This document shows, one piece after another, positions 8,317 through 25,500 of a stretch of DNA of 34,706 bases. The notes below the pieces were generated by a model. It was given only the letters and a program-made list of their open reading frames with translations. It was not told the origin of the DNA and ran no database searches. The stretch comes from Nitrospirota bacterium (GTDB lineage Bacteria; Nitrospirota; Thermodesulfovibrionia; Thermodesulfovibrionales; JdFR-85). The stretch covers positions 1 through 34,706 of the forward strand of contig DRKX01000015.1 in assembly GCA_011051565.1 (NCBI GenBank). Direction: 5' to 3'. Position 1 is the first letter of the stretch, and each line of letters opens with the position of its first letter. A program made the position numbers and the translations under genes.

Positions 8317-8332
8317 TGGAGGAAGTTTAGGG

Positions 8333-10675
8333 ATGAACTTGAAGAAGGCCATCTTGAGCGTCATTGGCCGCGACACCCTCAAGGACATCGTGGATGCCCT
8401 TGAGATTGAAGGGGTGGATCGTCGCAGCGCGAAGGAGATGGCTGCGGCGGTGAAGCGGGCCCGTCGCGCCACGCCAGAGTTTCTCCTGGAATACCTGGGG
8501 GAGGCCGAGGTCAAGGAAGTATGTGAGGTCTATGGTATCTCCAGTAAAGGGCGTCGACGAGCGTTGGTAGAAGCGCTGCTTCAGGCTGAGGGGCCCAGTA
8601 GTAAAAAGATCCGAGCAAAGCGCGCTGGAAATGTTCAGGCTCGGAGGCAGAATATACACAAAACGGATAAGAACTCTTCGGAGGTGGAAACGCCCATGGC
8701 AAACGACAAGCAAAACGAAACGCGGGAACCCATACGTCTTCCTGATCCCCCGCCGGGCATGGTGCGGGTGAACAAGGTCGAGTTGGTCTGGCCCGGCAAA
8801 TACAACGAGGACGGCACCCGAAAGGAAGTGCCAAAGGTGAGCCTGCCCTTCCAGGTTATCGAAAGGATCAATGAGAGCCGGGCAACCCGTGAAAGCCAAA
8901 AAGGTCAAAACTTGTCTCTTTTTGATATTTATGCGGGGCAGGAAGGCGACACCTTCGAAGAGGGCTGGAAGAATAAGCTGATCTGGGGTGACAACCTGCT
9001 TATCATGGGCTCGCTTTTGGAAAAATTCGCCGGCAAGATCGACCTGATCTACATCGATCCACCCTTCGCTACGGGGGCGGATTTTTCGTTTGCGGCCCCA
9101 ATAGGAGAATCGGGAGAAGAGGTTTTCAAAGAACAGTCAATAATTGAAGAGAAGGCATACCGGGATACATGGGGGCGTGGAATCGATTCCTATCTTGAGA
9201 TGCTTGTACCAAGGCTGAGACTTATGAGAGAATTGCTTTCTGATAAAGGATCCATTTTCATACATCTTGGTGTTCAAGTTAATCATTTCATAAGAGTAGT
9301 ACTCGAAGAGGTGTTTGGGGTCGAGAATGTTATTGACGAAATCATTTGGAGCTATGGCACCCCATCAGGTGGGCGTGCCGCTGGCAATAAGGTTATAAAG
9401 GCTCATGAATATATCCTCTATGCAGTCAAGGGCTATGGACAACATGTCTATAATAAAGAGTTTCTTCCGTACTCAGAGAAATATATAAAAGAACGGTTTA
9501 CTTTTATAGATGAGGATGGGCGTAGATACCGAATCAGAACACGAGGTAAGGGAAAGGTTGAGCGTCAGTATCTAGACGAAAGTAAAGGTGTACCTCTATC
9601 TACAGTCTGGGGAGATATAAAGCAGACGTATGCAATGCACCTTGTCAAGCGCGCTGCTGAGGAAACGGGGTTCCCTACTCAAAAACCTGAGGCTTTATTG
9701 GAACGAATTGTCAAAATAGCTTCTAGCCCCGGCGACCTTGTTGCTGACTTCTTCTGCGGCTCCGGGACCACCCTTGCCGTAGCCGAGAAGCTCGGACGAC
9801 GCTGGATCGGGTGCGACCTTGGTCGCTGGGCGATACATGTTACACGCAAACGGCTACTTGAAATCGAAAGCTGCAAGCCCTTCGAGATCCTCAACCTCGG
9901 CAAATACGAGCGTCAGTACTGGCAAGGCGTCACCTTCGGCAATAAGAAGAACAAGACCATCACTGAACGGGCCTTGTATGAATACTTGGCTTTTATCTTG
10001 AAGCTGTATGGCGCGCAACCGGTTTCAGGCCTTGTTCATCTTCACGGCAAGAAAGGTCGGGCCATGGTCCACATCGGAGCGGTAGACGCGCCAGTCACCA
10101 TCGACGAGGTCAATGCCGCCTTGGACGAATGCGTCCAGCTTAAACAACCTGAACTTCATGTCCTCGGCTGGGAGTGGGAGATGGGACTTGCCGGGCCCAA
10201 CAATAGCTATCGCAAGGGCAGCCCCATGCATGAGATAGCGAAAGCAAAAGGAGTTAAGCTGGTGCTGCTCCAGATCCCGCGGGAGGTGATGGAGCAACAG
10301 GCAGTGGAGAAGGGAGATGTCCAGTTTTTTGAACTGGCCTACCTGGAAGTGGAAATCAAGAAACCGCGGAAGTTGACCGTAGAAGTCACGCTCAAGGATT
10401 TTGTCATCCCAAACACCGAACTGATTCCCGAAGACGTGCGCTCGAAGATCAAGAAGTGGTCGGACTACATCGACTACTGGGCCGTGGACTGGGACTTTCA
10501 AAACGACACCTTCATGCAGGGGTGGGTTACGTACAGGACGCGCAAGAACCGCACACTGGCCCTCACCTCTGATCCGCATACCTACGAGAAACCCGGACGC
10601 TACCGAATTCTCGTGAAGGTGGTGGATATCTTCGGGAACGATACCTCTCAAGCTTACGACGTGGAGGTGAAGTAG
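8333..10675 (+). CDS. Type III-like beta-class DNA methyltransferase with N-terminal SAP-like segment
   Basis: A 780-aa modification enzyme that transfers methyl from SAM to an adenine N6 or cytosine N4. The catalytic motif IV, IDPPFATG (Asp242-Phe245), precedes the SAM-binding motif DFFCGSGTT (472-480), the order of beta-class enzymes such as type III Mod. PTQKPEALLERI is motif X, and the variable target-recognition region lies between. The first 90 residues contain two helical repeats ending in a SAP-like motif (LGEAEVKEVCEVYGISSKG), an extra DNA-binding element not usual for classical Mod. The C-terminus ends in a beta-rich segment (GRYRILVKVVDIFGNDT), possibly Ig/PKD-like. It sits 4 bp upstream of a Res-like gene, as in type III systems. 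Its methylation presumably marks host DNA for the whole operon. Confidence 0.92.
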   Translation: MNLKKAILSVIGRDTLKDIVDALEIEGVDRRSAKEMAAAVKRARRATPEFLLEYLGEAEVKEVCEVYGISSKGRRRALVEALLQAEGPSSKKIRAKRAGNVQARRQNIHKTDKNSSEVETPMANDKQNETREPIRLPDPPPGMVRVNKVELVWPGKYNEDGTRKEVPKVSLPFQVIERINESRATRESQKGQNLSLFDIYAGQEGDTFEEGWKNKLIWGDNLLIMGSLLEKFAGKIDLIYIDPPFATGADFSFAAPIGESGEEVFKEQSIIEEKAYRDTWGRGIDSYLEMLVPRLRLMRELLSDKGSIFIHLGVQVNHFIRVVLEEVFGVENVIDEIIWSYGTPSGGRAAGNKVIKAHEYILYAVKGYGQHVYNKEFLPYSEKYIKERFTFIDEDGRRYRIRTRGKGKVERQYLDESKGVPLSTVWGDIKQTYAMHLVKRAAEETGFPTQKPEALLERIVKIASSPGDLVADFFCGSGTTLAVAEKLGRRWIGCDLGRWAIHVTRKRLLEIESCKPFEILNLGKYERQYWQGVTFGNKKNKTITERALYEYLAFILKLYGAQPVSGLVHLHGKKGRAMVHIGAVDAPVTIDEVNAALDECVQLKQPELHVLGWEWEMGLAGPNNSYRKGSPMHEIAKAKGVKLVLLQIPREVMEQQAVEKGDVQFFELAYLEVEIKKPRKLTVEVTLKDFVIPNTELIPEDVRSKIKKWSDYIDYWAVDWDFQNDTFMQGWVTYRTRKNRTLALTSDPHTYEKPGRYRILVKVVDIFGNDTSQAYDVEVK

Positions 10676-10679
10676 AGCC

Positions 10680-13463
10680 ATGGCCAAGAGCATCATTGCC
10701 TACGACAGGGATCTTCCTGAAATCCCGGGCCGCCGCCCTTGGGAGCGACCGACTTCTTATCTGGTCAAAGACGATTCCGCCCCAAACGGTTGGCGAGTGG
10801 AAACCTCTGGTCGGCGTCCCAGCAAACTTCTCCTGGTGGAGAAGCTGCGGAAGGCGGTGGACAAGTGGCGGTACGAGGGATATCCCGGTGCCTCGGATGT
10901 TACAAGGCGGCTGTTCGAGTACTGGTTCGAGGAAGACCACGAGGTCCCGGGCTTTCCCGTTCCATTCCGTTACTACTTCTGCCAACGGGAGGCTATTGAA
11001 ACCCTCGCGTACGTGGTGGAGATCGCCCAAAACCGCGACGCCAAAGATTTAATCAGGCAGTATGCGAAGATCTATCGCAAGGATCTCCTGTCCGATTCCG
11101 TTTCTTTTCAGGAAACGATGGATGGCCGACGGCAGATCCGGAGGTATGTAGCCGAGCTGGAAGCCGAGGGTGTTCAGGATCTTCCGCCCGTTGACCTACG
11201 CCGCTATGCCTTCAAGATGGCTACGGGCTCGGGCAAGACCTTTGTCATGGCCATGGTCGTGGTCTGGTCGCACTTTCACAAGAAGCTCGTTCCAGGTTCC
11301 GATCTCTCCACAAATTTCCTGATAATCGCTCCGAACGTGATTGTGTACCAACGCCTGGAGAAAGACTTCGCCAGTAACCGTATCTTCCACGAGCTCCCGC
11401 TTATCCCGCCGGAGTGGCGGGGTGCGTGGAGCCAAAAGGTCATCCTACGTGGAGAAAGCACCGAACCCGATCCTTCCGGCAACCTATTCCTTACTAACAT
11501 TCAGCAGCTTTATGAAGCGCGAGAACAAGACTGGACACCAGAAAACGCTGTAGACGCCCTGCTGGGGCGCAAGCCGGTGAAAGACTTGACTTCGCACCAG
11601 CGTTCCATGTTGGAGAGAGTGAAAGAACTTAGGGACGTAGTTGTTATAAACGACGAAGCACATCACGTCCACCGCGAGGATCTCGCTTGGAGCCGCTCAC
11701 TTCTTAGTATCCATCGGGCACTTCCTAACGGGCTTTCTCTCTGGCTGGACTTCTCCGCCACACCGAAAGATCAGAACGGTATGTACTTTCCGTGGACAAT
11801 TTGTGACTATCCTCTAGCCCAGGCAGTTGAGGATCGAATTGTCAAAGCACCGATCATCGTAACCAAGGAAGACGACCCTAAACAGCCATCACAGGACCCA
11901 GGTCACGTCACGAAAAAGAACGTTACCGAGAAATACGGATATTGGATACGCGCTGCCGTCCAACGCTGGAAAGAGCATTTCCAGACCTACACTAAGCTCG
12001 GAACAAAACCTGTGCTTTTCATTATGGCTGAAAAAAACGCATATGCGGATGCCATCGGTGAGTACCTTTGGAAGACGAAAGAGTTCGGCTTCAAGGAGTC
12101 GGAAGTGCTGGTCATTCATACGGACTCAGCCGGTGAGATTACCAAGAAAGACCTGGAAAAGGCCCGTCAGGTAGCTCGAGACATTGACAAGCGCGAAAGC
12201 AAGATAAAAGCCATTGTAAGTGTGATGATGTTACGGGAGGGGTGGGACGTCCGTAACGTATCGGTGGTCCTCGGCCTCCGGCCATTCACCGCTAGAGCTG
12301 AAATACTCCCGGAACAAGTAATCGGCCGTGGCCTGCGCTTGATGATCGGGGTGGGGCCAGACCGAACCCAAACATTGGAAGTGCTGGGTACTCGGAACCT
12401 CTTGAACGTACTTCGGGAACAGCTGGAAGCCGAAGGGGTGGGTGTCACCACAACGAAAACAGATCCCCCTCGTCCAGTGGTAATCGAGCCGGTCAAGGAA
12501 AGACTCGCGTATGACATTACCATCCCCATTACCAAACCGCGATTGGTCCACAACTTCAAGAAGCTGTCAGATCTTGATCCGGCTACCTTGGACGCCATCT
12601 ACGATCAGGAGGAACTCGACAAATCTCTCAAGGACAAGTTAAGGATGGCCTTTGCTACTACTGAAACAGAAGTTCACGAGGAGCCGCTAGCATATGGAAC
12701 CATTCCGATCACCAGTGAACTGCTTAGTTCTATCACCACCAAGGTGATTCAGCGAGCCCGGCTTACCAATGTGTTCAACGAATTGTTCCCGCTGGTGCGG
12801 AAGTACGTAGCAACGCGGTGCTTCGGGAAACCGGTAGACCTCGACAAGGAAAACGTACGGCTTCATCTACGCCGTCTGGAGCTCCAGGAAGGGATCGCCA
12901 AGTATCTGGCTCGCAAGATTGGCGAGCTGACTATCGAGAAGCGGCCTATCGAATTCGAACGAGCCGATTTCAAGCTGTCCGAGACAAAGCCGTTCACATG
13001 GCGCCGCAACCTTCCTCCATTAGAGGCGAAGCGAACAGTATTTAATTACGTCGCGACTTACAATGATTTCGAACGCGGGTTTGCCCAGTTCCTGGACGCC
13101 GCCCCTGATGTCCTACGTTTTGCCAGTTTGGGCACAACTGAGCAGGGAGAATCGGGCACACAGTTTCGTATTGACTACCTCAAGCCAAGTGGTGCGATTG
13201 GCTTCTATCATCCCGACTGGGTTGTTGTTCAACAGACATCCGATGGCGAGGTGAACTGGATCATCGAAACGAAGGGGCGAGTGTGGGAAGGAACAGAGGT
13301 CAAAGACGCTGCCATGCGTGACTGGTGCATCCGCATCTCTGAGCAAACAGGCCAGCAGTGGCGATACGCCCGTGTAAATCAGAGCGTGTTTGATACTGGG
13401 AAGCCCAAAACATTGCACAGTCTTCTTGGAGGAGACAAATCGTGTCAAAAGCACTTACTGTGA
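10680..13463 (+). CDS. Type III restriction enzyme Res-like SF2 helicase-nuclease
   Basis: A 927-aa protein. SF2 helicase motifs: MATGSGKT (180-187, Walker A), DEAH (325-328, Walker B), FSATP (III), then LREGWDVRNV (V) and QVIGRGLRLM (VI). The C-terminal nuclease has HPDW with Asp846 and IIETKGR with Glu863 and Lys865, the PD-(D/E)XK signature of type III Res. It should form a complex with the methyltransferase 4 bp upstream, translocate on ATP hydrolysis and cleave DNA lacking the methyl mark. The family's usual length is 850-1000 aa, so it appears complete. The spacing leaves no room for its own promoter, so it depends on the operon transcript. Confidence 0.92.
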   Translation: MAKSIIAYDRDLPEIPGRRPWERPTSYLVKDDSAPNGWRVETSGRRPSKLLLVEKLRKAVDKWRYEGYPGASDVTRRLFEYWFEEDHEVPGFPVPFRYYFCQREAIETLAYVVEIAQNRDAKDLIRQYAKIYRKDLLSDSVSFQETMDGRRQIRRYVAELEAEGVQDLPPVDLRRYAFKMATGSGKTFVMAMVVVWSHFHKKLVPGSDLSTNFLIIAPNVIVYQRLEKDFASNRIFHELPLIPPEWRGAWSQKVILRGESTEPDPSGNLFLTNIQQLYEAREQDWTPENAVDALLGRKPVKDLTSHQRSMLERVKELRDVVVINDEAHHVHREDLAWSRSLLSIHRALPNGLSLWLDFSATPKDQNGMYFPWTICDYPLAQAVEDRIVKAPIIVTKEDDPKQPSQDPGHVTKKNVTEKYGYWIRAAVQRWKEHFQTYTKLGTKPVLFIMAEKNAYADAIGEYLWKTKEFGFKESEVLVIHTDSAGEITKKDLEKARQVARDIDKRESKIKAIVSVMMLREGWDVRNVSVVLGLRPFTARAEILPEQVIGRGLRLMIGVGPDRTQTLEVLGTRNLLNVLREQLEAEGVGVTTTKTDPPRPVVIEPVKERLAYDITIPITKPRLVHNFKKLSDLDPATLDAIYDQEELDKSLKDKLRMAFATTETEVHEEPLAYGTIPITSELLSSITTKVIQRARLTNVFNELFPLVRKYVATRCFGKPVDLDKENVRLHLRRLELQEGIAKYLARKIGELTIEKRPIEFERADFKLSETKPFTWRRNLPPLEAKRTVFNYVATYNDFERGFAQFLDAAPDVLRFASLGTTEQGESGTQFRIDYLKPSGAIGFYHPDWVVVQQTSDGEVNWIIETKGRVWEGTEVKDAAMRDWCIRISEQTGQQWRYARVNQSVFDTGKPKTLHSLLGGDKSCQKHLL

Positions 13464-13624
13464 TGCCGGCAGAACCCGCGGGCATGCTTTTAGATGCAAC
13501 GACGTTCCGGGCCGACATGCTTTTGCGTCTTCAGAGGAGGGGCAATGTTTGCTTACGTATGGGCAGCGCAAAGGCTTCGCAGTTGGCAATGAACTTGTGC
13601 CTGGATCCCAGACTTGCGAGGTGA
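13442..13624 (+). CDS. Possible small protein between res-like gene and druA
   Basis: A 60-codon frame opening at GTG 13442, inside the last 22 bases of the res-like gene. A strong GGAGGA lies about 8 bases upstream, and the stop falls 9 bases before the druA start. The predicted product (MSKALTVMPAEPAGM...) is basic and has no domain I recognise. Its fit into the overlapping operon architecture supports real translation, at least to couple res with druA. It could instead be a decayed fragment. The track also offers a 94-aa frame here, which has no comparable ribosome-binding site. Confidence 0.4.
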   Translation: MSKALTVMPAEPAGMLLDATTFRADMLLRLQRRGNVCLRMGSAKASQLAMNLCLDPRLAR

Positions 13625-13633
13625 TTTCTACCG

Positions 13634-14803
13634 ATGGAAGAGAGCCCCGCTATAAACGAGAGAGAGGGAGCTGAATTGAAGAAGGCAATCATCAGCTCTC
13701 TTCGTGCTCAGGGTTTTCGCGTCAGAAATGGCAAAATATTGCCTCCAAAGGATATCTCAAAGGAAAACCTTCGCAAGCTTCATGCAACCGCCGTCGAACA
13801 CCGAATAAGCAAAGCAAAAGCCGGACTTGTTCGGAAGGAACCTTACCTTTTACAGCATATTGCTTCCGGTCGTGAAGTTGTACCGGAGAAGATATCGCCC
13901 CGGATGATAGAGGTTGCGCCAGATTCGGAAGAAGAACTGCTTTTTAGGTATGCTAGCTTACACTGGAGCATTCCAGTGTCTTCTGGTTATGGCAGACGAT
14001 TGCGATTTTTGGTCATAGATGAGTATAATAACAAGCTAATCGGAATAATTGGGCTGGGTGATCCCGTATTCAGTCTAAAACCGCGAGACGAGTGGATTGG
14101 TTGGTCCATTTCCGACCGTAAGCAACGCCTGAAGAGTGTGATGGACGCTTTTGTGCTTGGCGCCATCCCGCCTTATTCCTTTCTTCTGTGTGGAAAGCTC
14201 GTGGCAATGTTGGTTGCCAGTGATACAGTCCAAAAGGCCTTTAAGAGGAAGTATGGAGGTACACGCTCTGTCATTCAACGCAAAGAGCATGATGGCCGGC
14301 TCGCAATGATCACAACAACATCGGCTCTTGGCCGTTCCTCTATTTATAACAGGCTTCGTTTGGGAGATCGTCTTCTGTATCGAAGTGTCGGTTTTACCAA
14401 AGGCTCCGGTGAGTTTCATTTTTCAAATGGTCTGTATAGAAAAATATCGGAGTTTGCGGAGAAGCATTGCAAGCCTACGGCGAAACAGGAACGATGGGGA
14501 ACGGGCTTCCGCAACCGGCGGGAGATTGTCAGGAAGTGCTTACCTTTGCTCGGGCTATCAAGCGACTGGATTTATCACGGGGTTCAACGCGAGGTATTCG
14601 TGGTCCCACTAGCGCGCAATACACGCGAGTTCCTTCGCGGCGAGCACTCACGCCTGATGTGGTATCACCTGTCCGAAACCGATATCTACGAGTTCTTCCG
14701 AGATCGGTGGATGTTACCAAGATTATCTTGGGATAAAAGACTCTATTCCTGGTCCAAGGAGGATTGGGCCATCTGGGCGGGAAAGGAGGATGGTGGTGCC
14801 TGA
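13634..14803 (+). CDS. DruA-like protein (DUF4338), Druantia-associated
   Basis: A 389-aa protein of the DUF4338 family, whose founding defence member is DruA of Druantia systems. The recognisable core is the stretch around LLFRYASLHWSIPVSSGYGR, then LRFLVIDEYNNKLIGIIGLGDP, the hallmark RDEWIGWS, and PPYSFLLCGKLVAMLVAS. Molecular function is not established to my knowledge. The ATG has a GAGGTG ribosome-binding site 10 bases upstream. The 3' end overlaps the NurA gene by 8 bp. Classical Druantia also needs the very large helicase DruE, which is absent here. DruA is instead placed between a type III-like restriction gene and a NurA-HerA pair, so this is not a standard Druantia operon. Confidence 0.78.
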   Translation: MEESPAINEREGAELKKAIISSLRAQGFRVRNGKILPPKDISKENLRKLHATAVEHRISKAKAGLVRKEPYLLQHIASGREVVPEKISPRMIEVAPDSEEELLFRYASLHWSIPVSSGYGRRLRFLVIDEYNNKLIGIIGLGDPVFSLKPRDEWIGWSISDRKQRLKSVMDAFVLGAIPPYSFLLCGKLVAMLVASDTVQKAFKRKYGGTRSVIQRKEHDGRLAMITTTSALGRSSIYNRLRLGDRLLYRSVGFTKGSGEFHFSNGLYRKISEFAEKHCKPTAKQERWGTGFRNRREIVRKCLPLLGLSSDWIYHGVQREVFVVPLARNTREFLRGEHSRLMWYHLSETDIYEFFRDRWMLPRLSWDKRLYSWSKEDWAIWAGKEDGGA

Positions 14804-15923
14804 CACATTTTCAGATCTTCCCGATGCCCTCGTGCAAGATCTTCTGGCTCAGGCGACGCCCGTCGCGGAGCGGGTTTCGACACATTTGAATCGACTGCGT
14901 CAAGCCCGCAATTCAATACGGCAGCGAGTTCGATCAGAAGGGTTGATCGCACGTAAGGCGGATCTTGACGTGACGCGAGAACCTTCCGTGGTAGGAATTG
15001 ATGGCTCGTACCAGATCCACCGGCTTACGGCCCTGGACCTGTGTGCAGCGGCAGCTGTAGCTGTGGAAGGTACATCCAAAGAGGCTCGTCGTCACTGGCA
15101 GGAGCCGTACCACCGAATGTGGGTGAACTGTTTCGAGCACAGCAAGAACGCCACTAACACGTTGCGTGGGTTAATGATTTCAATGGAGTTAGACCTCGCA
15201 GCGGAGGCGCCTCATGATCTTGTACTTCTTGATGGGTCATTTATCGTCCTCTTGATTTATCTGAATCAAGGCCTCACCAGCTTCTACGAAGCCCCAACGC
15301 TTCTTCGGGAGGAGTTTCAAAGAAGATGGGAAGAGCATCAGGTGCTGGACCGTTTCCTTGAGCTCATTCAAAGCAACCGAACCGTAGCTGTTCCAAAATA
15401 TAGTGGCCGTAACGAACTCGCCAGTTTCACGCCGGATGAGAGGCTGCCAGAAACGGATGGAAGAACACTAGCTACTGTGATCCTTGAGCCGGATGAGTAC
15501 ATTAAGCCGCTGCCGATTTATCATTTCGGCGAAGAAGACAGAGAGTATCACCTACCGGAAAGTCACTGCCCACGTGAGAAGCAGGAAGTCATGAATCAAC
15601 ATATAGAAGGCATGCGAGTTGTTTTTTATCGTCCGTACGGTTGGGCCCCAGCTATCCGACTCGAACTGACGTCTCCAATTGCTACAAGCCAAACACGACT
15701 CTCGATGGTTCTTGAAGGGATCAAGCGCCAATTCTTCAGCCCGGCTGTAACTGAGCCATACCCCCTGTTCTTGGCAGACAGGATGGTAAAGAGTTTAGGA
15801 GCTGGCGTCTCAGTAATTGAGCAGGCTATCGCTCAGCAGGCGGTGGCTGTCTCCCCAGATGTCGAGGCGACGCTCCTATGCCTTCAGAACTATCGGACCG
15901 AAGGTGGTCGAGGAGGTAGCTGA
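14796..15923 (+). CDS. nurA: NurA-domain 5'-3' nuclease
   Basis: A protein of about 375 residues with the NurA signature: VVGIDGSY (Asp69, first metal ligand) after a helical N-terminus, then VLLDGSFI near residue 140 as the second acidic strand. NurA is an Mn-dependent, RNase H-fold nuclease that in archaea works with the HerA translocase to resect double-strand ends. The partner HerA gene follows immediately with a TGATG overlap, which strongly supports a functional pair. The track starts at ATG 14790, but the AAAGGAGG Shine-Dalgarno (14782-14789) touches that codon. GTG 14796 has the proper 6-base spacing, so I prefer it. Confidence 0.85.
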   Translation: MPDTFSDLPDALVQDLLAQATPVAERVSTHLNRLRQARNSIRQRVRSEGLIARKADLDVTREPSVVGIDGSYQIHRLTALDLCAAAAVAVEGTSKEARRHWQEPYHRMWVNCFEHSKNATNTLRGLMISMELDLAAEAPHDLVLLDGSFIVLLIYLNQGLTSFYEAPTLLREEFQRRWEEHQVLDRFLELIQSNRTVAVPKYSGRNELASFTPDERLPETDGRTLATVILEPDEYIKPLPIYHFGEEDREYHLPESHCPREKQEVMNQHIEGMRVVFYRPYGWAPAIRLELTSPIATSQTRLSMVLEGIKRQFFSPAVTEPYPLFLADRMVKSLGAGVSVIEQAIAQQAVAVSPDVEATLLCLQNYRTEGGRGGS

Positions 15924-17674
15924 TGCCGAATGATCGCAACCAGGATGTGGCAGTCGTCGGGAGTCCGTCGACCAATACGGAGCTAACAGTTGACCTGCTC
16001 CAAGAAGCTACAGAAGAGCGGTTGGTAGGAGCGCTCACGGCTTTTGAAGCTGTTCAGGACGGACATCCGATCACATGTGTAGGACAAATTGTGGGGATAG
16101 AGCTGAAGAACCGTTGGCATGAAGATTCTGTATTCCGGAATCTCGTGAAGAGGACAGGCGAAATTCCACCGATCACGAACCGCCAAGACACGCGAACTGC
16201 CGGCCTAGTTGTGGGTGCTACGTTCCGCCAAACGACAAATGGATATGAGCCGGATGTACTGGGTATGGTGCCTCCAACAGGAACAAGAGTTTATCGAGTT
16301 GATCAGGATCTTTTGGACCGTCTTCTTAGCGTCTATCAGTCTGAAATCGTGTATCTAGGCAGAGCGTATGCTAATGACGTTTTCTACCCCATGTGGTTCA
16401 AGCATTTCGGGAGCGGAGCGGGTGGCGCGGGCGAGGCTTATCATTTAGGTGTTTTTGGCAAGACCGGCTCGGGCAAATCTGGGCTCGCGAAGATGATGCT
16501 ATGTGCATATGCGCGGCATCCGCAGATGGGTATTCTAATCATTGATCCGCAAGGGGAATTCTCAGATGAGTTGAGCGGGGTGCGGCGCGGTCACCAGGGA
16601 CTGGCCTTAGACGAAGTGGTGCGCAATCTCGGTCGTCCGATTCAGCGGTATCGCATCGTAGATCTCCAACTCGACACCTGGGATCTTTTTCAGGAGTTAT
16701 TAATCGTCAGAAGGTTCATCCAAGATCACCTCGACGTAAGAGGTGCTGACAATATACCATTAGCGGCGGAATACATTCGAGAGGGTTTACAGCGGGCAGG
16801 GACAACTCTTCCCCATCTTGCCTCGCTGGACGCTCTTCGCGCTGCTCTAAATATCGTCTCACAAAGAGCAAACCGAATCTATACAGGACAAGCGAGAGCC
16901 GCACAACTACAAGATCGTGTTAATACAATCCTTAACTCCGAATTAGACACAACCTTTGAGAACGGATGGAGACCCATAGCGGATCTTTTCAGGTCTGGGC
17001 AAGGGAGAAGAACACTATTCGGAATCGTAAGGGATCTGATCCAGAGTGAAGGGGCCGGGCAGCCACGACCGGTAGTGGTCATCGATATATCAGAAGAAGG
17101 CAACCCGGGATTATGGGCAGAGGAGATTGAGCGGAGAGTAATGACCAGACTACTCAACGTGCTGATTATTCAATCAGCGCAGCGGTCGAGGAGACAAGAA
17201 GGAGCAAATGTACTTGTAATGATCGACGAAGCTGCCCGCCACGCACCTTCTGGTCGAATTGATGCAGGAAGTGAGGCGGACGTGTTGCGTAAGGTACTAC
17301 GTAATGCTGTCCGAGAGACACGAAAGTATGGCCTTGGTTGGTTTTTCATAAGCCAAACCTTAGGAGGGCTCGATAACGAACTTCTTCAGCAACTTCGGAT
17401 ATTGGTGTTTGGATTCGGATTAGCGATGGGGTCAGAGTTCGACCGACTCCGGGACTTCGTGGGCGGCGACAAGCGAGCCTTAGAGCTTTACCAATCGTTC
17501 CGTGATCCGCAGAGTTTTCCGCGGCGGGATCTACAGGAGTTTCCGTTCATGGCTGTTGGTCCGGTTTCTCCATTGGCGTTCAGTGGAAAGCCTCTATTCT
17601 TTACTGCCTTCACAGATTCACAGGAATTTCTGCGGGTCAACGGCTTGGAACCTGTGTCGCATGATGGAACCTGA
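15923..17674 (+). CDS. herA: HerA-like hexameric DNA translocase ATPase
   Basis: A 583-aa ATPase of the HerA/FtsK superfamily. The N-terminal beta-barrel (HAS-type) spans roughly 40-140. Walker A is GKTGSGKS (179-186) and is followed by ILIIDPQGEFSDEL. Walker B is VMIDEAARH (Asp435, Glu436). A later FISQTLGGLDNELLQQL matches the sensor/arginine-finger region of HerA proteins, and the C-terminal tail is short. HerA forms a ring that pumps double-stranded DNA and activates NurA. The pair is typical of archaea. In bacteria, HerA relatives occur in defence systems with various nucleases. The start overlaps the NurA stop, and its end overlaps the next ORF by 14 bp. Confidence 0.9.
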   Translation: MPNDRNQDVAVVGSPSTNTELTVDLLQEATEERLVGALTAFEAVQDGHPITCVGQIVGIELKNRWHEDSVFRNLVKRTGEIPPITNRQDTRTAGLVVGATFRQTTNGYEPDVLGMVPPTGTRVYRVDQDLLDRLLSVYQSEIVYLGRAYANDVFYPMWFKHFGSGAGGAGEAYHLGVFGKTGSGKSGLAKMMLCAYARHPQMGILIIDPQGEFSDELSGVRRGHQGLALDEVVRNLGRPIQRYRIVDLQLDTWDLFQELLIVRRFIQDHLDVRGADNIPLAAEYIREGLQRAGTTLPHLASLDALRAALNIVSQRANRIYTGQARAAQLQDRVNTILNSELDTTFENGWRPIADLFRSGQGRRTLFGIVRDLIQSEGAGQPRPVVVIDISEEGNPGLWAEEIERRVMTRLLNVLIIQSAQRSRRQEGANVLVMIDEAARHAPSGRIDAGSEADVLRKVLRNAVRETRKYGLGWFFISQTLGGLDNELLQQLRILVFGFGLAMGSEFDRLRDFVGGDKRALELYQSFRDPQSFPRRDLQEFPFMAVGPVSPLAFSGKPLFFTAFTDSQEFLRVNGLEPVSHDGT

Positions 17675-18059
17675 GACGATGTCCGAGCATTTAGATCTGC
17701 TGAGTACACTCCTGAAACCAAGCTATAGGCCACAGCGACCGCTCGATGATCGCTGGCCGACGGACCATTTCAATCAAGGCCAGGATTGGCTTCTGGATCT
17801 TCGGAACCTGCTGATAGGTCTCATGGAGTTCTACCAACGAAAGGAGCGTCGGCGGATGCGCAGCGATGTCTCTTTTCGGGTTACTCGCGGCTCTACCCTT
17901 GCGACCGAGGCGATTGAACCTCTGGCAGTTCTTTTAACAGATGTTTGCCCCCTGCTCTTTGGGATAATCGGGAGGGGATGTCTTCCGGGCCTTTTGATCC
18001 ACGACAGCCCGCGTGAAGCTGATCATGGGCTCATAATCTACCGGAGTTGTTTAGAGTAA
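17661..18059 (+). pseudogene. Short ORF with C-terminal SMC/Rad50-like ATPase motif, probably an internally deleted remnant
   Basis: A 132-codon frame from ATG 17661, overlapping the end of herA (the track's start at 17502 lies inside herA). The final 70 residues read like the tail of an SMC/Rad50-type ATPase: a signature-like segment (STLATEAIEPLAVLLTDV) and a Walker B/D-loop-like GLLIHDSPREAD. No Walker A and no coiled coil are present, so it cannot be a working ATPase alone. It may have lost its middle by internal deletion, and it ends abruptly (YRSCLE) just where codon usage changes. A complete Rad50-like partner next to NurA-HerA would echo the archaeal Mre11-Rad50-HerA-NurA operon. The identification rests on my reading of motifs, not on a search. 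Confidence 0.5.
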
Positions 18060-18532: not shown

Positions 18533-19792
18533 ATGATAAAGAGACATATCGCTTCGGATATCTTAGATTCCCTCCGGCATTTCCCGGTAGTCCTTCTTAC
18601 CGGGGCAAGGCAGGTCGGCAAATCCACCCTGGCGGAGATGCTCTCGAAGACCAGGTGGAAGGCCGCATACCTTACGCTTGACAGCCGCGTGGTGCTCGAT
18701 GCCGCGCTTGCAGACCCGGACGGGTTCATAAGCGGCACTCCTGTCCCGGCGATAATCGACGAGGTGCAGAGGTCCCCCGACCTCATGCGTGCCATAAAGG
18801 GCGTTGTTGACAGAGACCGCAGGCCCGGGCAGTTCTTGCTTGCCGGCTCTGCCAACCTGATGACCCTTCAAAAGGTCTCGGAGACCCTTGCCGGCAGGGT
18901 GGCGCTCCATGAGCTCCAGCCCTTCATGTGGTCGGAGATAGCCAAGAAGAAGCCGCCCGCCATCCTGCGAGAACTCTTTTCGGCAGAGGACGCGGGGGCG
19001 CTCGCAAGGAAATGGAAGAGGCGCACATTTCCTGACAGGCGAAAGGAGATAGAGAAACTCATAATCGCAGGAGGTTATCCCACCCTGTCGCTTATGAAAT
19101 CGACCAGCGCCCGCAGGCGGTGGTTCGACTCCTACAGGCAGACCTATATCGAAAGGGACATCCGCGACATGGCTGCCATCCAGCACCTGCCTGACTTCGG
19201 CAGGCTCCTGAGCCTCCTTTCATTCAGGACAGGGCAGATGATCAACTTCTCGGAGGTATCGAGGGAGGTGGGCCTGCCGCTCAGCACACTCAAAAGATAC
19301 ATGGACCTCCTCGAGGTCACATACCAGATATATTTCCTGAGACCCTATTTCGTGAACATCGGCAAGCGCCTGATAAAGATGCCGAAGCTCTACTTCGGCG
19401 ACAGCGGCATGGCCTGCCATCTCTCGGCGGTCGAGGACTGGAAGACCCTCGAGCGGCAGGGCAGGGTCGGCAGCATGGTCGAGACATGGGCGGCCTCGGA
19501 ACTGAGAAAGCTCGTATCCCTTGGAGGGGCAAGGTATCAGCTCTATTTCTGGCGCACCTATGCAGGGCGGGAGGTGGACTTTATAATCGAACATGGGGAT
19601 AAGGTCGTTGCTATAGAGGTGAAGTGGTCTCAAAGTCTTGAGAACTCCGACCTCGCAGGGCTCAAGGACTGCGCCGGCGACCTGAAGGGAAGGCACGTCC
19701 TGTCGGTTCTCCTCTATCCAGGAACGGAACTTGTCGCTGTTGATAAGCAGACCATTGCAATGCCTTTTGGGGTCTTCTTCGGGGTTGATTGA
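18533..19792 (+). CDS. AAA_14/DUF4143 family ATPase
   Basis: A 419-aa P-loop ATPase. Walker A is GARQVGKST (24-32), Walker B is AIIDEVQRSPD, sensor-like FLLAGSAN and ALHELQPFMWSE follow, and a helical/winged region lies in the middle (SEVSREVGLPLSTLKRYMDLL). The C-terminal DUF4143 domain contains REVDFIIE and VAIEVKWS, a PD-(D/E)XK-like fold (Asp, then Glu-x-Lys). This family is very widespread in bacteria and archaea, often in accessory zones, with no settled function. The codon style (AGG, ATA) is like the right-hand chromosome rather than the defence operon. Its own promoter shows that it is not part of that operon. It is complete in length. Confidence 0.88.
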   Translation: MIKRHIASDILDSLRHFPVVLLTGARQVGKSTLAEMLSKTRWKAAYLTLDSRVVLDAALADPDGFISGTPVPAIIDEVQRSPDLMRAIKGVVDRDRRPGQFLLAGSANLMTLQKVSETLAGRVALHELQPFMWSEIAKKKPPAILRELFSAEDAGALARKWKRRTFPDRRKEIEKLIIAGGYPTLSLMKSTSARRRWFDSYRQTYIERDIRDMAAIQHLPDFGRLLSLLSFRTGQMINFSEVSREVGLPLSTLKRYMDLLEVTYQIYFLRPYFVNIGKRLIKMPKLYFGDSGMACHLSAVEDWKTLERQGRVGSMVETWAASELRKLVSLGGARYQLYFWRTYAGREVDFIIEHGDKVVAIEVKWSQSLENSDLAGLKDCAGDLKGRHVLSVLLYPGTELVAVDKQTIAMPFGVFFGVD

Positions 19793-19837
19793 TGATGGAT
19801 AAAGGAAAAATCGTGCCCTTCCGACCGGCTGAGCCTT

Positions 19838-19999
19838 TTACAAAGGAGGCCAAGGAGAGATGGTCTTGAGCGAGGGCTTGAGCTCCGGCAAGACGACCCG
19901 CTTTGCCTTCTTCCAGTCTACATAATCGGTCGAGTCGCGGGTGGCCCAGAACTCCCTCTCCTCGTCTTCGTTCTTGAATTTAGGAACCCTCTTTTTCAT
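19838..19999 (-). pseudogene. Truncated CopG/BrnA-like antitoxin
   Basis: A 53-aa minus-strand frame, too short for the track. It starts MKKRVPKFKNEDEEREFWAT, then DYVDWKKAKRVVLPELKPSLKTIS. This is the typical N-terminal two thirds of small CopG/BrnA-type antitoxins, where KTIS is normally followed by a ribbon-helix-helix segment of about 25 residues. Here the frame instead ends within five codons (PWPPL stop), so the DNA-binding part is missing. An AGGAGGG lies about 12 bases upstream. No cognate BrnT-like toxin is adjacent; the upstream gene is a PIN toxin. It is probably a deletion remnant. Confidence 0.65.
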
Positions 20000-20027
20000 T
20001 GTACCTGTAGACCCTCCTTTATACCCC

Positions 20028-20450
20028 TTATTTTACATCCTCAACCCACACAACATGTTTCCTGAACTTGCCGTTCTTGAGACCGTCATAGAGCCGCCGG
20101 TCTGCGGTCACCATCCTACCCTTGATAAGGGCTGCAAGGGCAACGTAGAGGCAGTCGTATATGCTCTGTCCCGTCTGGTTGGCGAAGGCGAAGGCTGAGT
20201 CAAGAAATGAAGTGAATGAATGATGCTGTATGGGATACCGTCGGAGTGCGTCCCTCAACTGCAGTGCCTCCTCCGTGGTGACGACACCGCGCCGCGTCCA
20301 TTTGCAGATTATGCTGTCCAGCTCTAAGAGCAGGAAATCAGGGGCGTGGAGCCGGTTTTTCTCCCTTAGGACCGAAAGCGCAGCCTCGCTGTGCTCCTCC
20401 TCGATGAACCATTTCGCCACCACGCTTGCATCGACAATGAATACGCTCAC
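20028..20450 (-). CDS. PIN-domain toxin, VapC-like (module 1)
   Basis: A 140-aa PIN-domain ribonuclease. The acidic metal-binding residues are visible as Asp7 (FIVDASV), Glu43, Asp99 (SIYDCLYVALA) and Asp117 (VTADRRL), the complete PIN quartet. Such toxins cut tRNA or other RNA when the antitoxin is degraded. Its ATG overlaps the last 4 bases of the antitoxin gene upstream, the usual coupling of type II pairs. It appears intact. Confidence 0.88.
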   Translation of the reverse strand: MSVFIVDASVVAKWFIEEEHSEAALSVLREKNRLHAPDFLLLELDSIICKWTRRGVVTTEEALQLRDALRRYPIQHHSFTSFLDSAFAFANQTGQSIYDCLYVALAALIKGRMVTADRRLYDGLKNGKFRKHVVWVEDVK

Positions 20451-20686
20451 CGTACCCGGTCCTCGTGGATAAGTTCGACCGTGTCGGGGAACCTCCTGCC
20501 TTTGAACCTCTGACGGAATTCTTCGCAGATCTTCCGGGCGGTCTCCACATCCACCCTGGGCTCAAGGGCGGCCTGCTCCAGGATAAGCTTCACCTCACTC
20601 TGAAGAGAACGCCCCTCCTCCATGGCGCGCTTTTTAAGGCGCTCTACAACCTCCTTGCTCAGGTTGCGAACCAGTATCTGTGCCAT
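20447..20686 (-). CDS. FitA-like ribbon-helix-helix antitoxin (module 1)
   Basis: A 79-aa antitoxin. The N-terminal MAQILVRNLSKEVVERLKKRA followed by GRSLQSEVKLILEQAA is the ribbon-helix-helix DNA-binding fold of FitA/VapB-type proteins. The C-terminal tail (RFKGRRFPDTVELIHEDRVR) should wrap the PIN toxin. GGGAGG lies 8 bases before the ATG. It should neutralise the neighbouring toxin and repress its own promoter, where a perfect palindrome overlaps the -10 box. Confidence 0.85.
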   Translation of the reverse strand: MAQILVRNLSKEVVERLKKRAMEEGRSLQSEVKLILEQAALEPRVDVETARKICEEFRQRFKGRRFPDTVELIHEDRVR

Positions 20687-20709
20687 GACTTAGCCTCCCA
20701 CACACATAA

Positions 20710-20748
20710 TGCTATCATTATGATAGCAAGAGGCCCTGTCCTTGTCAA
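20710..20748 (-). promoter_or_regulatory. Promoter and perfect palindromic operator of TA module 1
   Basis: On the minus strand TTGACA (20748-20743), a 17-bp spacer and TATCAT (20725-20720) form a near-consensus promoter. The palindrome tgctatcat-t-atgatagca (20710-20728), with perfect 9-bp arms, covers the -10 box. This is the expected site for autorepression by the antitoxin or the toxin-antitoxin complex. Confidence 0.75.
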
Positions 20749-20762
20749 CTTTATTGCTGGAT

Positions 20763-20998
20763 TTGCCGACTCCGCAAGCATCCGGTTGAACTCCTGTATC
20801 TGTCTTGCTTGGTCAGGTATCATAAGAAGCGGCCTCAGGCGGCGTTCCGAAAAATACCGGATTGCCCTCTGGTCATCCAGCCCCGGAAGAGTCCTCTGAA
20901 TCTCCTCCGGGAGCTTCAGGAGCCCCATCACCTGACACACCCTTGCTCGTGTAATCCCCAGTTCCCTTGCTATATCGGCCTGTGAATCGATTTCTTTT
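20763..20998 (-). pseudogene. Remnant of a ParB-like HTH gene (copy 1)
   Basis: The minus-strand translation contains SQADIARELGITRARVCQVMGLLKLPEEIQ, a ParB/KorB-type helix-turn-helix, followed by the tail LPGLDDQRAIRYFSERRLRPL. It lacks an N-terminal half, because the upstream end runs directly into the stop of the next PIN gene. Similar HTH tails occur in recombinase-linked genes, but that link is from memory. The central 103 bp recur almost exactly at 21765-21867. Confidence 0.55.
20814..20916. repeat. 103-bp direct repeat, copy 1
   Basis: This stretch matches 21765-21867 in the same orientation at 100 of 103 positions (three substitutions, no gaps, compared by eye). It encodes part of a ParB-like HTH gene tail on the minus strand. 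Each copy lies 130-165 bp upstream of a different VapBC-type module. Confidence 0.85.
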
Positions 20999-21397
20999 TT
21001 ATATCCTTAGCACCTTCAGCCTGGTGCATGCCCTAATGAGCTCAAAATCGCTGTCCTTGTGAAGGAGGGTCAGGTTGTTCTCCATGCATATGGCGGCGAT
21101 GATGCAGTCGACGGTCTTTCTTACGGTCTTGCCCCTTTTTCTGCAATCTCTGTAAATCCCGGCCGCCTTCAGGTAGGTCTCCGTGCCCTTCGGCCTATGG
21201 ATCGGGAGTTCCAGAAGATAGTCCTTCACCCTCTTGAAGTCCTTGTCCTCCTTTATCCCCTGGAGGATTTCGGTAAGAATTATCTCGGTGATGGAAATGT
21301 CTTCCTCTTCTTCAATGAGCCTGTGAAGGGCATGGCGCTCCTTGGAGTGTGCGCCATTCAGAAAATCTATCCAGACGCTCGTGTCGACAAGGATCAT
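20999..21397 (-). CDS. vapC: PIN-domain toxin, VapC-like (module 2)
   Basis: A 132-aa PIN ribonuclease with all acidic positions visible: Asp5 (MILVDTSVWIDFL), Glu43 (TEILQG), Asp97 (TVDCIIAA) and Asp115/Asp117 (HKDSDF). The opening LVDTSVWIDF is classical for VapC. It shares a 4-bp overlap with the antitoxin gene upstream. It is unrelated in detail to module 1, so the two modules were acquired independently rather than by a recent duplication of the toxin. Confidence 0.9.
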   Translation of the reverse strand: MILVDTSVWIDFLNGAHSKERHALHRLIEEEEDISITEIILTEILQGIKEDKDFKRVKDYLLELPIHRPKGTETYLKAAGIYRDCRKRGKTVRKTVDCIIAAICMENNLTLLHKDSDFELIRACTRLKVLRI

Positions 21398-21600
21398 ACT
21401 CTGTCTCTGCTTTTCCTCATCTCATCGAGGTTGCCCTGCCACTCGACCTTGCCTTCAAGCTCAAGGAGCTTTTTCCGCTTGAACCTCTTTACGAGTTCCT
21501 CAAGGGCGTAGTTCACAAGCTCTTTTTTGGTCTTTTTATGGGTGAGTTTCATGGCCTCGTCCACGAGCTTCTCGTCAAGCTCGATATTCGTTCTTAACAT
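21394..21600 (-). CDS. vapB: VapB-family antitoxin (module 2)
   Basis: A 68-aa antitoxin of the VapB (DUF2191-like) type. MLRTNIELDEKLVDEAMKLT plus KKTKKELVNYALEELVKR is the ribbon-helix-helix, and WQGNLDEMRKSRDRV is the toxin-binding tail. GGAGGA sits just upstream of the ATG. It pairs with the PIN toxin that follows with a 4-bp overlap. Confidence 0.87.
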   Translation of the reverse strand: MLRTNIELDEKLVDEAMKLTHKKTKKELVNYALEELVKRFKRKKLLELEGKVEWQGNLDEMRKSRDRV

Positions 21601-21621
21601 AGCGGTATCCTCCTCCGATTA

Positions 21622-21652
21622 CATACACCAAATATAGCATATTTATGTGTGT
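21622..21652 (-). promoter_or_regulatory. Palindromic operator-like site upstream of vapB
   Basis: The core aaatat-agc-atattt (21630-21644) is a perfect 6-bp inverted repeat. It extends imperfectly outward as acacac/gtgtgt-type flanks. It lies 22-52 bp before the vapB start, as expected for autoregulation. No clear consensus promoter could be picked with confidence. Confidence 0.45.
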
Positions 21653-21727
21653 GTAGCAAGGGGGATTTTTTGAACGATACGGGCATCGGTCGCGGAATGA
21701 GTGGAAGACAAAGTCTGCACCCTTTCA

Positions 21728-21890
21728 AGCATCCTATTGAACTTCCTCACCTGCTCATCCGGGCCAGGTATCATAAGAAGCGGCCTTAGGCGGCGTTCCG
21801 AAAAATACCGGTTTGCCCTCTGGTCATCCAGCCCCGGAAGAGTCCTCTGAATCTCCTCCGGAAGCTTGGGAGTGCCGGTTAACTCGATCG
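21728..21890 (-). pseudogene. Remnant of a ParB-like HTH gene (copy 2)
   Basis: The minus-strand translation is KLPEEIQRTLPGLDDQRANRYFSERRLRPLLMIP and then FNRML, the same tail as copy 1. The helix-turn-helix in front of it is missing: homology begins sharply at KLPEEIQ. It is a shorter fragment than copy 1 and cannot be functional. Confidence 0.55.
21765..21867. repeat. 103-bp direct repeat, copy 2
   Basis: Second copy of the 20814-20916 repeat, same orientation, three substitutions. The two copies are 951 bp apart and bracket toxin-antitoxin module 2. Confidence 0.85.
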
Positions 21891-21982
21891 GCCTGGACAA
21901 GCAGACTGACAAGTATACTTTGTATGTTATTGTTCATCGTTTAGATGATATTCCGACATAAACTCTGTACCAGTATAATTGA

Positions 21983-22019
21983 TATGCCATATTTCCCTTT
22001 TTCTGAGAATTATGGCATA
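21983..22019 (+). promoter_or_regulatory. Inverted repeat operator upstream of abiEi
   Basis: tatgccata (21983-21991) and tatggcata (22011-22019) are perfect reverse complements across a 19-bp spacer. The second arm ends 11 bases before the abiEi ATG. AbiEi antitoxins are known to bind inverted repeats in their own promoter and bend it, so this is the expected autoregulatory site. The start codon has no Shine-Dalgarno (ctaaatatactATG), so a very short or leaderless transcript is possible. Confidence 0.65.
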
Positions 22020-22030
22020 CTAAATATACT

Positions 22031-22837
22031 ATGGAAGATATCTTAGGCTTAGGTAAGGGGGACAGGAAACGACTGTCTGCTGTATTACGGGAGACGAAAG
22101 GGACTATTACTGTCCGGGAAGCGGCGGAGATATTGAAAGTCCCTCGGTTCGATGCAGCAAAGATGCTTTCCCGCTGGACTAAGAGGGGCTGGCTTTCCCG
22201 TGTCCGCCGTGGTCTCTATATTCGGGTACCGCTTGAATCACGAACAGCGGACATTCCGCTGGAAGACCCGTGGGTAATCGCTGACCGGTTATTCTCGCCC
22301 TGTTACATCGGAGGCTGGACGGCAGCCGAATATTGGGGCCTTACAGAGCAGATATTCCGTACTGTTGTTGTTATGACCTCAAGACAGGTGAGAGACCGCA
22401 CCCCTATCATAAAAGGGACAAACTTCTTGATTCGCACTATTTCACAAAAGGCGTTGTTCGGAACCAAACCGGTCTGGAGGGGACAGATAAAAGTATCGGT
22501 TTCCGATCCGGAGCGGACGATTCTCGATATGCTGGATGCTCCAAAGCTTGCTGGTGGGATTCGGCCGACGGCAGATATTCTTTCGAACTACCTGAAATCA
22601 GAAAAGATGAATCTTGAGCTTTTAATTTCGTATGCTGAACGCTTAGGGAACGGTGCCGTCTTTAAGAGGCTTGGCTTTCTGCTGGAGCGCCTTGCGCCTG
22701 AGCAGAAGGGCTTCATTAAGAAGTGCAGGACAATGCTGACAAAGGGCAATGCAAAGCTCGACCCGGCATTGAAGGCCGAGCAACTGGTAACCCGATGGCG
22801 GCTATGGGTGCCGGAGAGTTGGGCAAAGGAAGGCTAA
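22031..22837 (+). CDS. abiEi: AbiEi-type antitoxin / transcriptional regulator (type IV TA)
   Basis: A 268-aa protein. The N-terminal winged helix-turn-helix is visible as TITVREAAEILKVPRFDAAKMLSRW then GWLSRVRRGLYIRVPL, the typical opening of AbiEi. The larger C-terminal domain includes YIGGWTAAEYWGLTEQIF and SDPERTILDMLD, both characteristic of the family. AbiEi represses its operon and counters the AbiEii nucleotidyltransferase without a stable complex. The AbiEii gene starts at the base after its stop. The system is known for abortive infection against phage. Confidence 0.88.
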   Translation: MEDILGLGKGDRKRLSAVLRETKGTITVREAAEILKVPRFDAAKMLSRWTKRGWLSRVRRGLYIRVPLESRTADIPLEDPWVIADRLFSPCYIGGWTAAEYWGLTEQIFRTVVVMTSRQVRDRTPIIKGTNFLIRTISQKALFGTKPVWRGQIKVSVSDPERTILDMLDAPKLAGGIRPTADILSNYLKSEKMNLELLISYAERLGNGAVFKRLGFLLERLAPEQKGFIKKCRTMLTKGNAKLDPALKAEQLVTRWRLWVPESWAKEG

Positions 22838-24283
22838 GTGATCGACCGGCAGGAAATAAGCGACTTCTCAAGGGAATTCGGCCTTGCCGCCAATGTCATC
22901 GAGAAAGACTATGTCCTGGGATGGCTGTTAGCGGGAATCTCCGGTCATCCTGAACTCGGCTCAAGCTGGATATTTAAAGGAGGAACGTGCCTGAAGAAGT
23001 GCTACTTCGAGACATACCGTTTTTCAGAAGACCTTGATTTCACGGTCGTGCAATCCGATCATCAAGACGAGGCCTTTCTTGTCGAGGCGTTCAAGCAGAT
23101 CGCTGATTGGGTCTACGACGCCTCCGGCATAGAAATTCCCCATGAGCTGATCCGTTTTGATGTCTATACAAATCCTCGCGGTAAGATGTCTGTTCAGGGC
23201 AGGATTGGATATAGAGGGCCCCTAAGGCCTGGCGGTGATTTGCCGCGCGTTAAGCTGGATTTGATTGGTGACGAGTTGCTGGTTTTGGACCCTTCAAGCC
23301 GAGAAGTGCATCATCCTTATACCGATAGGCCGAATGGTGGAATATCTGTCCGGTGCTTCAGTTTCGAAGAAGTATTTGCGGAAAAAATCAGGGCATTGGC
23401 TGAACGCTTAAGACCTCGAGACCTCTATGATGTAATCCATCTCTTCCGTCACGACAGCACAAAACATAGCCGGGAGTTGATTTTGTCCACACTTGAAAAG
23501 AAGTGCGCCTTCAAAGGCATACCGCTGCCGACACTGGAGTTTCTTGCAGACAAACCAGAACGGGCCGAGCTTGAAACTGAATGGGAAAACATGCTCTGGC
23601 ATCAAGTGCCCGTATTGCCGCCCTTCGAGCAATTCTGGCAGGAGCTTCCGCAGATATTCGATTGGCTCTATCGTACCATCGTTAAGCCTGCACCTTCAGC
23701 CATGCCGGCTATGGGGCGTGCAGTTGATGTATCATGGCATCCGCCAGCTATGGCTCAAGCATGGCACGCGTCAGTTCCGCTTGAGCTGATTCGTTATGCC
23801 GCTGCAAACCGCCTTTGTGTCCAACTGAACTATACAGATGCAAAGGGAATTCAAAAGAACCCGGTCATAGAGCCATATTCTCTGCGCCGCACCAAGGACG
23901 GCAACCTTCTTCTCTATGCCGTGAAGTATGAGTCCGGGGAGGATAGGGCATATAGAGTCGATAGGATTCGGGGCGCAAAGGTTACGAAAATATCGTTTAT
24001 CCCCCGATACGTGGTTGAGCTGACAACACCCGGAATTATTTCCGCACCTCCCCTTACGAGGACACGCAAGACAGGTATTACAGGGAACACTGCTACAAGA
24101 AAGCCGAAGAAGAGGACTTCAGGTTTTGGGAGCTACGGACCGAAATATGTCTTCAGATGCATGATATGCGGCAGGAAGTTCACCCGAAAATCGTATGATG
24201 CGGCATTAAATCAACACAAGAATAGGCAGGGGTATCCGTGTCCCGGTCGAACCGGCATTTATGTAACCACAAAGTACCAGTAG
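22838..24283 (+). CDS. abiEii: AbiEii nucleotidyltransferase toxin with WYL-like and zinc-finger-like C-terminal extensions
   Basis: A 481-aa protein. The N-terminal 280 residues are an AbiEii toxin: FKGGTCLKK (46-54) and SEDLDF with Asp65 and Asp67 are the nucleotidyltransferase motifs, and AEKIRALAERLRPRDLYDV is the conserved helical motif. Unlike simple AbiEii (about 300 aa), it continues with a segment like a WYL domain (about 311-400: ELIRYAAANRLCVQLNYTD, IEPYSLRR, YRVDRIRGAKV). It then has a CCHC-type putative zinc finger, Cys441-x2-Cys444-x15-His460-x7-Cys468. It uses GTG as start with AAGGAAGG upstream. WYL domains often sense nucleic-acid ligands, so these parts may control the toxin (inference). 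Confidence 0.85.
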   Translation: MIDRQEISDFSREFGLAANVIEKDYVLGWLLAGISGHPELGSSWIFKGGTCLKKCYFETYRFSEDLDFTVVQSDHQDEAFLVEAFKQIADWVYDASGIEIPHELIRFDVYTNPRGKMSVQGRIGYRGPLRPGGDLPRVKLDLIGDELLVLDPSSREVHHPYTDRPNGGISVRCFSFEEVFAEKIRALAERLRPRDLYDVIHLFRHDSTKHSRELILSTLEKKCAFKGIPLPTLEFLADKPERAELETEWENMLWHQVPVLPPFEQFWQELPQIFDWLYRTIVKPAPSAMPAMGRAVDVSWHPPAMAQAWHASVPLELIRYAAANRLCVQLNYTDAKGIQKNPVIEPYSLRRTKDGNLLLYAVKYESGEDRAYRVDRIRGAKVTKISFIPRYVVELTTPGIISAPPLTRTRKTGITGNTATRKPKKRTSGFGSYGPKYVFRCMICGRKFTRKSYDAALNQHKNRQGYPCPGRTGIYVTTKYQ

Positions 24284-25452: not shown

Positions 25453-25500
25453 GACCGGTCCCTGAATCGCCTCCGCCAACCCCCCCGCTGCCTCTCAACC

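Follow-up and report, generated by a model that had tools for sequence, protein, structure and literature searches.

The TdpABC phosphorothioation and restriction system has a compact three-gene layout that includes a HerA-like ATPase, and TdpAB acts with TdpC as restriction-modification partners. The HerA-NurA complex of Thermococcus kodakarensis acts on duplex DNA as an exonuclease, and the authors of that study propose that it is antiviral (PMC12977600). HerA-nuclease complexes are antiphage elsewhere (PMC11291478). DruE is the sole component common to all Druantia subtypes; in Druantia III, DruH is thought to be the infection sensor and DruE the effector (PMC13192584). Here we describe a three-gene operon, druA-nurA-herA, at positions 13634-17674 (+ strand) of a 34,706-nucleotide stretch of a Nitrospirota bacterium (GenBank assembly GCA_011051565.1, contig DRKX01000015.1, positions 1 to 34,706). 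The whole stretch analysed is referred to as the window. DruA-NurA-HerA is a stand-alone module that has spread horizontally across phyla.

The operon encodes a full-length homologue of the DruA of type I Druantia, which is 39-42% identical to the DruAs of plasmid-borne Druantia operons and has the same invariant residues. In contrast to Druantia, the module lacks DruE and the Druantia accessory genes, and its motor and nuclease are HerA and NurA. Since it has no DruE, the module is not Druantia. As in Sir2-HerA and HerA-DUF4297, a HerA-family ATPase gene lies beside that of its nuclease in patchily distributed operons, but here the nuclease is NurA, which has an RNase H-like fold, DruA is a third constant gene, and HerA is only distantly related. 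The motor and nuclease folds are those of archaeal and Deinococcus HerA-NurA, whereas the NurA model is ~12-15% identical to the solved NurAs, the partner is DruA and the distribution is scattered. With TdpABC, the module shares the compact three genes and a match between the HerA profile and TdpA (1.2e-10). However, its DruA is GNAT-like rather than a PP-loop sulfur-transfer enzyme, and a PDB search with the NurA profile gave no match to TdpB. Open-access PubMed Central (PMC) yielded no paper with DruA, NurA and HerA together, nor one with Druantia and NurA. Judged against that literature and the defence models up to PADLOC 2.0 (2023), the arrangement appears to be previously undescribed, though it may have been named elsewhere.

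The three open reading frames lie on the same strand, at the coordinates and in the frames originally assigned to them. The first gene of the module, druA (13634..14803, +), encodes a DUF4338 protein of 389 aa; nurA (14790..15923, +) encodes a NurA-family nuclease of 377 aa, and herA (15923..17674, +) a HerA/FtsK-type DNA-pumping ATPase of 583 aa. The druA/nurA junction reads GGAAAGGAGG-ATG-GTGGTGCC-TGA, with the nurA ATG at 14790 and the druA stop at 14801-14803. The genes overlap by 14 nt if nurA starts at this ATG, or by 8 nt if it starts at GTG 14796, a candidate that is better spaced from GGAGG. At the nurA/herA junction, GAGGAGG-TAGC-TGATG, the nurA stop (15921-15923) and the herA ATG (15923) overlap by 1 nt. 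The original prediction, that the druA 3' end overlaps nurA and nurA overlaps herA, is thus confirmed from the junction sequence.

A HerA alignment was scanned against 85,462 species genomes and returned 80 loci (given L numbers below). These belong to Nitrospirota, Planctomycetota, Verrucomicrobiota, Chloroflexota, Bacillota, Acidobacteriota, Pseudomonadota, Bacteroidota, Gemmatimonadota, Armatimonadota, Deinococcota, Cyanobacteriota, Poribacteria and others. Every one of the 80 has NurA next to HerA. In 14 no DruA is seen upstream, and seven of these are on contigs that end before the DruA slot, which leaves 73 testable loci. DruA lies directly upstream of NurA in 66 of the 73, and the druA-nurA gap is usually -17 to +28 nt. 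Among the seven loci that deviate, L087 and L093 encode a short DUF4338 protein where DruA would be. Because the scan was seeded with HerA only and still gave this order in 66 of 73 testable loci, a chance origin of the gene order is excluded. The neighbourhood of DUF4338 with NurA and HerA is not peculiar to this contig: the arrangement occurs in some two dozen bacterial phyla and at one archaeal locus, in Ferroglobus (L108), and a second archaeon (Bathyarchaeota, L151) has NurA-HerA without DruA. The distribution is patchy: a HerA relative is present in only 12 of 396 Nitrospirota genomes and in none of three sampled congeners. A search of IMG/VR for carriage by phages or viruses gave only two NurA loci. 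Together, the surveys strongly support a functional link between DruA and NurA-HerA. On a Rhizobium plasmid (L155:6842-11031), the NurA-HerA pair follows an unrelated 387-aa gene and precedes a gene for an HSP90-like ATPase; proteins other than DruA may partner NurA-HerA from that position.

To avoid the bias of seeding with HerA, a second survey searched 1,313 species genomes for DruA (396 Nitrospirota, 369 Gammaproteobacteria, 301 Chloroflexota and 247 Acidobacteriota). This gave 36 DruAs matching the whole Pfam profile, of which 34 were assessable; L059 is frame-broken and L236 lies at a contig end. An operonic HerA ATPase accompanies 30 of the 34, representing fewer events than genomes because some of the surveyed genomes are close relatives. 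The order is DruA-NurA-HerA in 24 cases, NurA-HerA-DruA in two (L058 and L237), with other NurA and HerA families, and DruA-two genes-HerA in one (L229). In a further three (L056, L057 and L295) the order is DruA-X-HerA, where X has NurA-like DG...DG...PxYP motifs and no profile match; hhalign of X against NurA also gave no match. The HerAs of these six cases belong to other lineages than that of the 24. DruE was found beside DruA in only four of 34 (L191, L230, L231 and L294). The premise that DruA occurs mainly with DruE-type helicases is therefore wrong in these species-level samples, where NurA-HerA is the usual partner. No DruE is present in the window or next to the module, and among the HerA-seeded loci weak YprA-like matches lie near only L106 and L118.

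The HerA protein matches DUF87 (PF01935, 6.1e-12), and its profile matches solved HerA/TdpA ATPases (best 3.3e-13). Walker A (FGKTGSGKS, 179-186) and the Walker B DEA (D435 and E436) are invariant across eight aligned relatives, all of which also keep the arginine fingers 464/467 and the sensor Q478. NurA is the weakest of the three assignments by sequence: PF09376 matches at 1.7e-5 for the window protein and 3.9e-12 for a relative, and in a search of its profile against PDB sequences the best match was NurA at only 0.45. The assignment was therefore decided by fold. An AlphaFold2 model built from 44 window and locus sequences (predicted local distance difference test score, pLDDT, 90.5) matched best, in Foldseek, the NurA of Sulfolobus solfataricus (2e-11) and that in the HerA-NurA complex of T. 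kodakarensis (2.2e-11). D71 and D148 are invariant and E133 is conserved in at least 90% of sequences; their order and spacing in the family suggest that they are the catalytic residues. With motor motifs intact in HerA and the fold and acidic positions kept in NurA, both motor and nuclease look active.

DruA matches PF14236 over residues 42-336 (6.2e-124) and the PADLOC DruA model (1.5e-121), and a PDB sequence search found no relative. DUF4338 was called a GNAT domain by an independent study (PMC10853773). Foldseek hits of our AlphaFold2 model (60 sequences, pLDDT 92) against the PDB are dominated by GNAT acyltransferases at E 0.02-0.2, none of them at E<=0.001. PPY (179-181), GK (187-188), SSxYxR (235-240), R151 and R319 are invariant in DruAs linked to NurA-HerA, to DruE and to other HerAs, and the polar residues kept in all contexts are R121, D129, R151, Y181, K188, S235, S236, Y238, R240, R319 and R363. 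The modelled fold suggests a GNAT acyltransferase core with a near-invariant pocket, which makes an enzymatic role a live alternative to a passive loader. Against viral structures, the model matched homologues from giant viruses and a single fragment from a phage, and nothing like Mom, a phage DNA modification enzyme. The giant viruses Faunusvirus, Yasminevirus and Dasosvirus encode DruA-fold proteins (BFVD A0A3G4ZXG3, A0A5K0UAJ3 and A0A3G4ZRA1; E 7e-18 to 9e-7). A DruA domain is also embedded in 1,240-residue proteins with otherwise no clear Pfam domain (L203:179-3904 and L241:5896-9639).

In a tree of 85 DruA rows whose rooting is not fixed, six DruE-linked DruAs form one clade (98/87). This clade and the DruA-X-HerA pair are placed between two large clades of NurA-HerA-linked DruAs, and the Ferroglobus copy is nested among bacterial copies. 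The tree would allow Druantia to be a derived arrangement. Comparison of pairwise identity matrices over 64 loci gave correlations of r=0.92 for NurA/HerA, 0.53 for DruA/NurA and 0.40 for DruA/HerA. Between L103 and L074 the DruAs are 83% identical, the NurAs 35% and the HerAs 40%; L100 and L075 show a similar contrast (77%, 38% and 41%), and L121 and L018 the opposite one (HerA 76%, DruA 36%). Remnants of earlier, window-type herA genes persist directly behind the present ones. L103:9759-9962 retains 68 codons from the end of an L074-type HerA (93%), and L205:13425-13874 a 3' stump of ~155 codons, 58% identical to the window HerA. The identity contrasts and the stumps together indicate that nurA-herA was replaced as a unit under a constant druA. 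Such exchange speaks against an interface at which DruA and HerA have closely co-evolved. Judging from these comparisons, DruA is a separable module and nurA-herA is inherited together.

No neighbouring gene family occurs in more than four of 94 loci compared. The complete conserved unit is therefore three genes, and a fixed fourth subunit was rejected since no fourth gene is constant. Genes do occur inside the operon at individual loci, among them defence genes (ThaI restriction-modification, GmrSD, BrxC/D-like, SACS-NOV_C and methyltransferase). In L018 a ThaI restriction-modification pair lies between nurA and herA. Elsewhere the operon contains GmrSD (L107), NucS-like and BrxC/D-like genes (L101/L025) or a pentapeptide-repeat protein gene (L020/L116). 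SACS-NOV_C proteins that are 61-69% identical are encoded between druA and nurA in distant organisms, including the archaeon (L018:13667-16831, L097:3669-6800 and L108:2769-5933); these loci are possibly a subtype with a fourth subunit.

We think it fairly probable that druA-nurA-herA serves defence by destroying foreign duplex DNA, with DruA for recognition or triggering and HerA-NurA as duplex-DNA pump and nuclease. This reading is supported by the conserved gene order, the results of the DruA-seeded survey, the patchy distribution, the horizontal spread, the defence genes inserted within the operon, the unit-wise swapping, and the precedents of antiphage HerA-nuclease complexes and of archaeal HerA-NurA degrading double-stranded DNA. 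The sequences show the anatomy of the operon, its conservation and the modular exchange; we infer the defence role, the HerA-NurA complex and the recognition or trigger part of DruA alike. DruA would recognise, or be triggered by, a target such as foreign DNA, a replication intermediate or an infection signal, and would then license or recruit the HerA hexamer. The hexamer would thread duplex DNA into an attached NurA dimer, which would degrade it. That DruA loads or directs HerA-NurA, as originally proposed, is plausible. The accompanying label of an end-resection pair is doubtful, as the T. kodakarensis complex digests double-stranded DNA and makes no 3' overhangs (PMC12977600). The pairing of DruA with two different motors would fit the sensor/effector logic of Druantia III, and DruA appears to be a general adaptor paired in evolution with NurA-HerA of several lineages, the DruE helicase and, as short DUF4338 proteins, transposases. 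Several observations weigh against a defence system triggered by DruA. A matched test of 125 neighbours against 125 control genes from the same genomes (PADLOC/Pfam tallies) showed no clear defence enrichment: methyltransferases made up ~5 of the 125 neighbours, and the controls also included CRISPR, Avs2 and restriction-modification genes. Many copies of the module sit among housekeeping genes. Five loci have nurA-herA without DruA (L112, L114, L115, L134 and L151); the source genome of L134 has another complete copy, L205. Finally, a protein that only loads HerA-NurA would have no need of the enzyme-like features seen in DruA.

A different reading is three-gene restriction-modification, in which a GNAT-type DruA marks host DNA, by analogy with Mom, and HerA-NurA degrades unmarked DNA, as TdpAB does alongside TdpC. 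The GNAT-like fold with its many invariant polar residues in all contexts, the HerA-TdpA profile match and the replacement of nurA-herA with druA kept, as expected if DruA carried self-protection, all speak for it. Yet Foldseek matched DruA neither to Mom nor to another DNA-modifying GNAT, with no solved GNAT at E<=0.001, and some loci have nurA-herA without DruA, a combination that would be toxic; we regard this reading as unlikely. A slightly less probable version is that DruA is a GNAT-family enzyme modifying DNA or DNA ends, and the module a phylum-spanning restriction-modification system of new chemistry with an exchangeable HerA-NurA that destroys unmarked duplex. If DruA were such a self-marking enzyme, type I Druantia would be a derived version with a helicase instead. 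We are more doubtful still, by a little, that the module serves DNA repair, with HerA-NurA resecting or cleaning broken ends and DruA as a repair adaptor. A role in recombination has been ascribed to the HerA-NurA of archaea and Deinococcus (reviewed in PMC12977600), but the module is patchy and horizontally moving rather than retained vertically across clades, its operon carries inserted defence genes, and the archaeal complex does not produce 3' overhangs. Nor is there a constant repair neighbour: Mre11-Rad50 was not seen beside the module, and no repair gene recurred in the loci compared.

Short DUF4338 proteins (L297, L299, L300 and L068) are encoded ahead of IS66 transposases or form fusions with one of Tn5 type, with several copies per genome, and make up a transposon accessory family. 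By analogy, DruA might be a mobile-element passenger with no functional tie to nurA-herA. These proteins share the Pfam family with the window DruA but form a distinct subfamily that lacks part of the conserved pocket (PPY...GK and SSxYxR), whereas the window DruA is full-length and has no transposase among its adjacent genes. In the tree it falls among the Druantia-type and NurA-HerA-linked DruAs, away from the short forms, and did not prove to be part of an unrelated mobile element. Full-length DruA also occurs on either side of HerA genes from several lineages, giving two gene orders, and the coupling is conserved and overlapping across phyla. Phylogeny and conserved coupling thus led us to reject the passenger explanation, which is highly improbable. 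It is also improbable, if less extremely so, that the seven genes of 833-17674 are one system in which DruA-NurA-HerA is accessory to type III-like restriction genes. All seven are co-directional, the gap before druA is 170 nt (13464..13633), and a SACS-NOV_C protein also occurs inside three other copies. However, apart from this distant relative, the upstream genes recur beside no other copy of the module, the commonest neighbour family reaches only 4/94 loci, and the SACS-NOV_C proteins inserted in other operons share only ~24% identity with that of the window. A single seven-gene system was therefore rejected, as its upstream genes are not conserved.

The genes at 833-13463 are a separate, restriction-modification-like four-gene operon of unusual arrangement, window context rather than part of the module. 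On the + strand, they encode a UvrD plus Cas4-like PD-(D/E)XK protein (833-3781), a giant SACS+NOV_C protein (3781-8316), a type III-like N6/N4 methyltransferase (8333-10675) and a ResIII+endonuclease protein of the BPTD_3080 type (10680-13463). When the gap to druA (13464-13633) was scanned for promoters and terminators, no signal exceeded that of shuffled sequence. Downstream, a 126-aa open reading frame (17679-18059) begins 4 nt 3' of herA; it has no homologue in the fetched loci and looks like a truncated remnant. The region 18533-34706 encodes an AAA_14/DUF4143 ATPase, an AbiEi/AbiEii pair and a HipA_C protein. Near 25 kb the G+C content steps up from ~52% to at least 60%, and riboflavin-synthesis genes follow, which suggests the edge of an acquired island.

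DruA was named after Druantia, yet its usual partner in the sampled species is NurA-HerA, and in the open-access literature no name was found for this widespread module, whose motor-nuclease is the best studied of those in archaea. The occurrence of the same DruA with two unrelated motors gives a two-way handle on its function, and the swaps of nurA-herA under a fixed druA show separable parts that lend themselves to exchange tests. The cellular role of HerA-NurA is disputed, and the module offers an antiviral setting for it.

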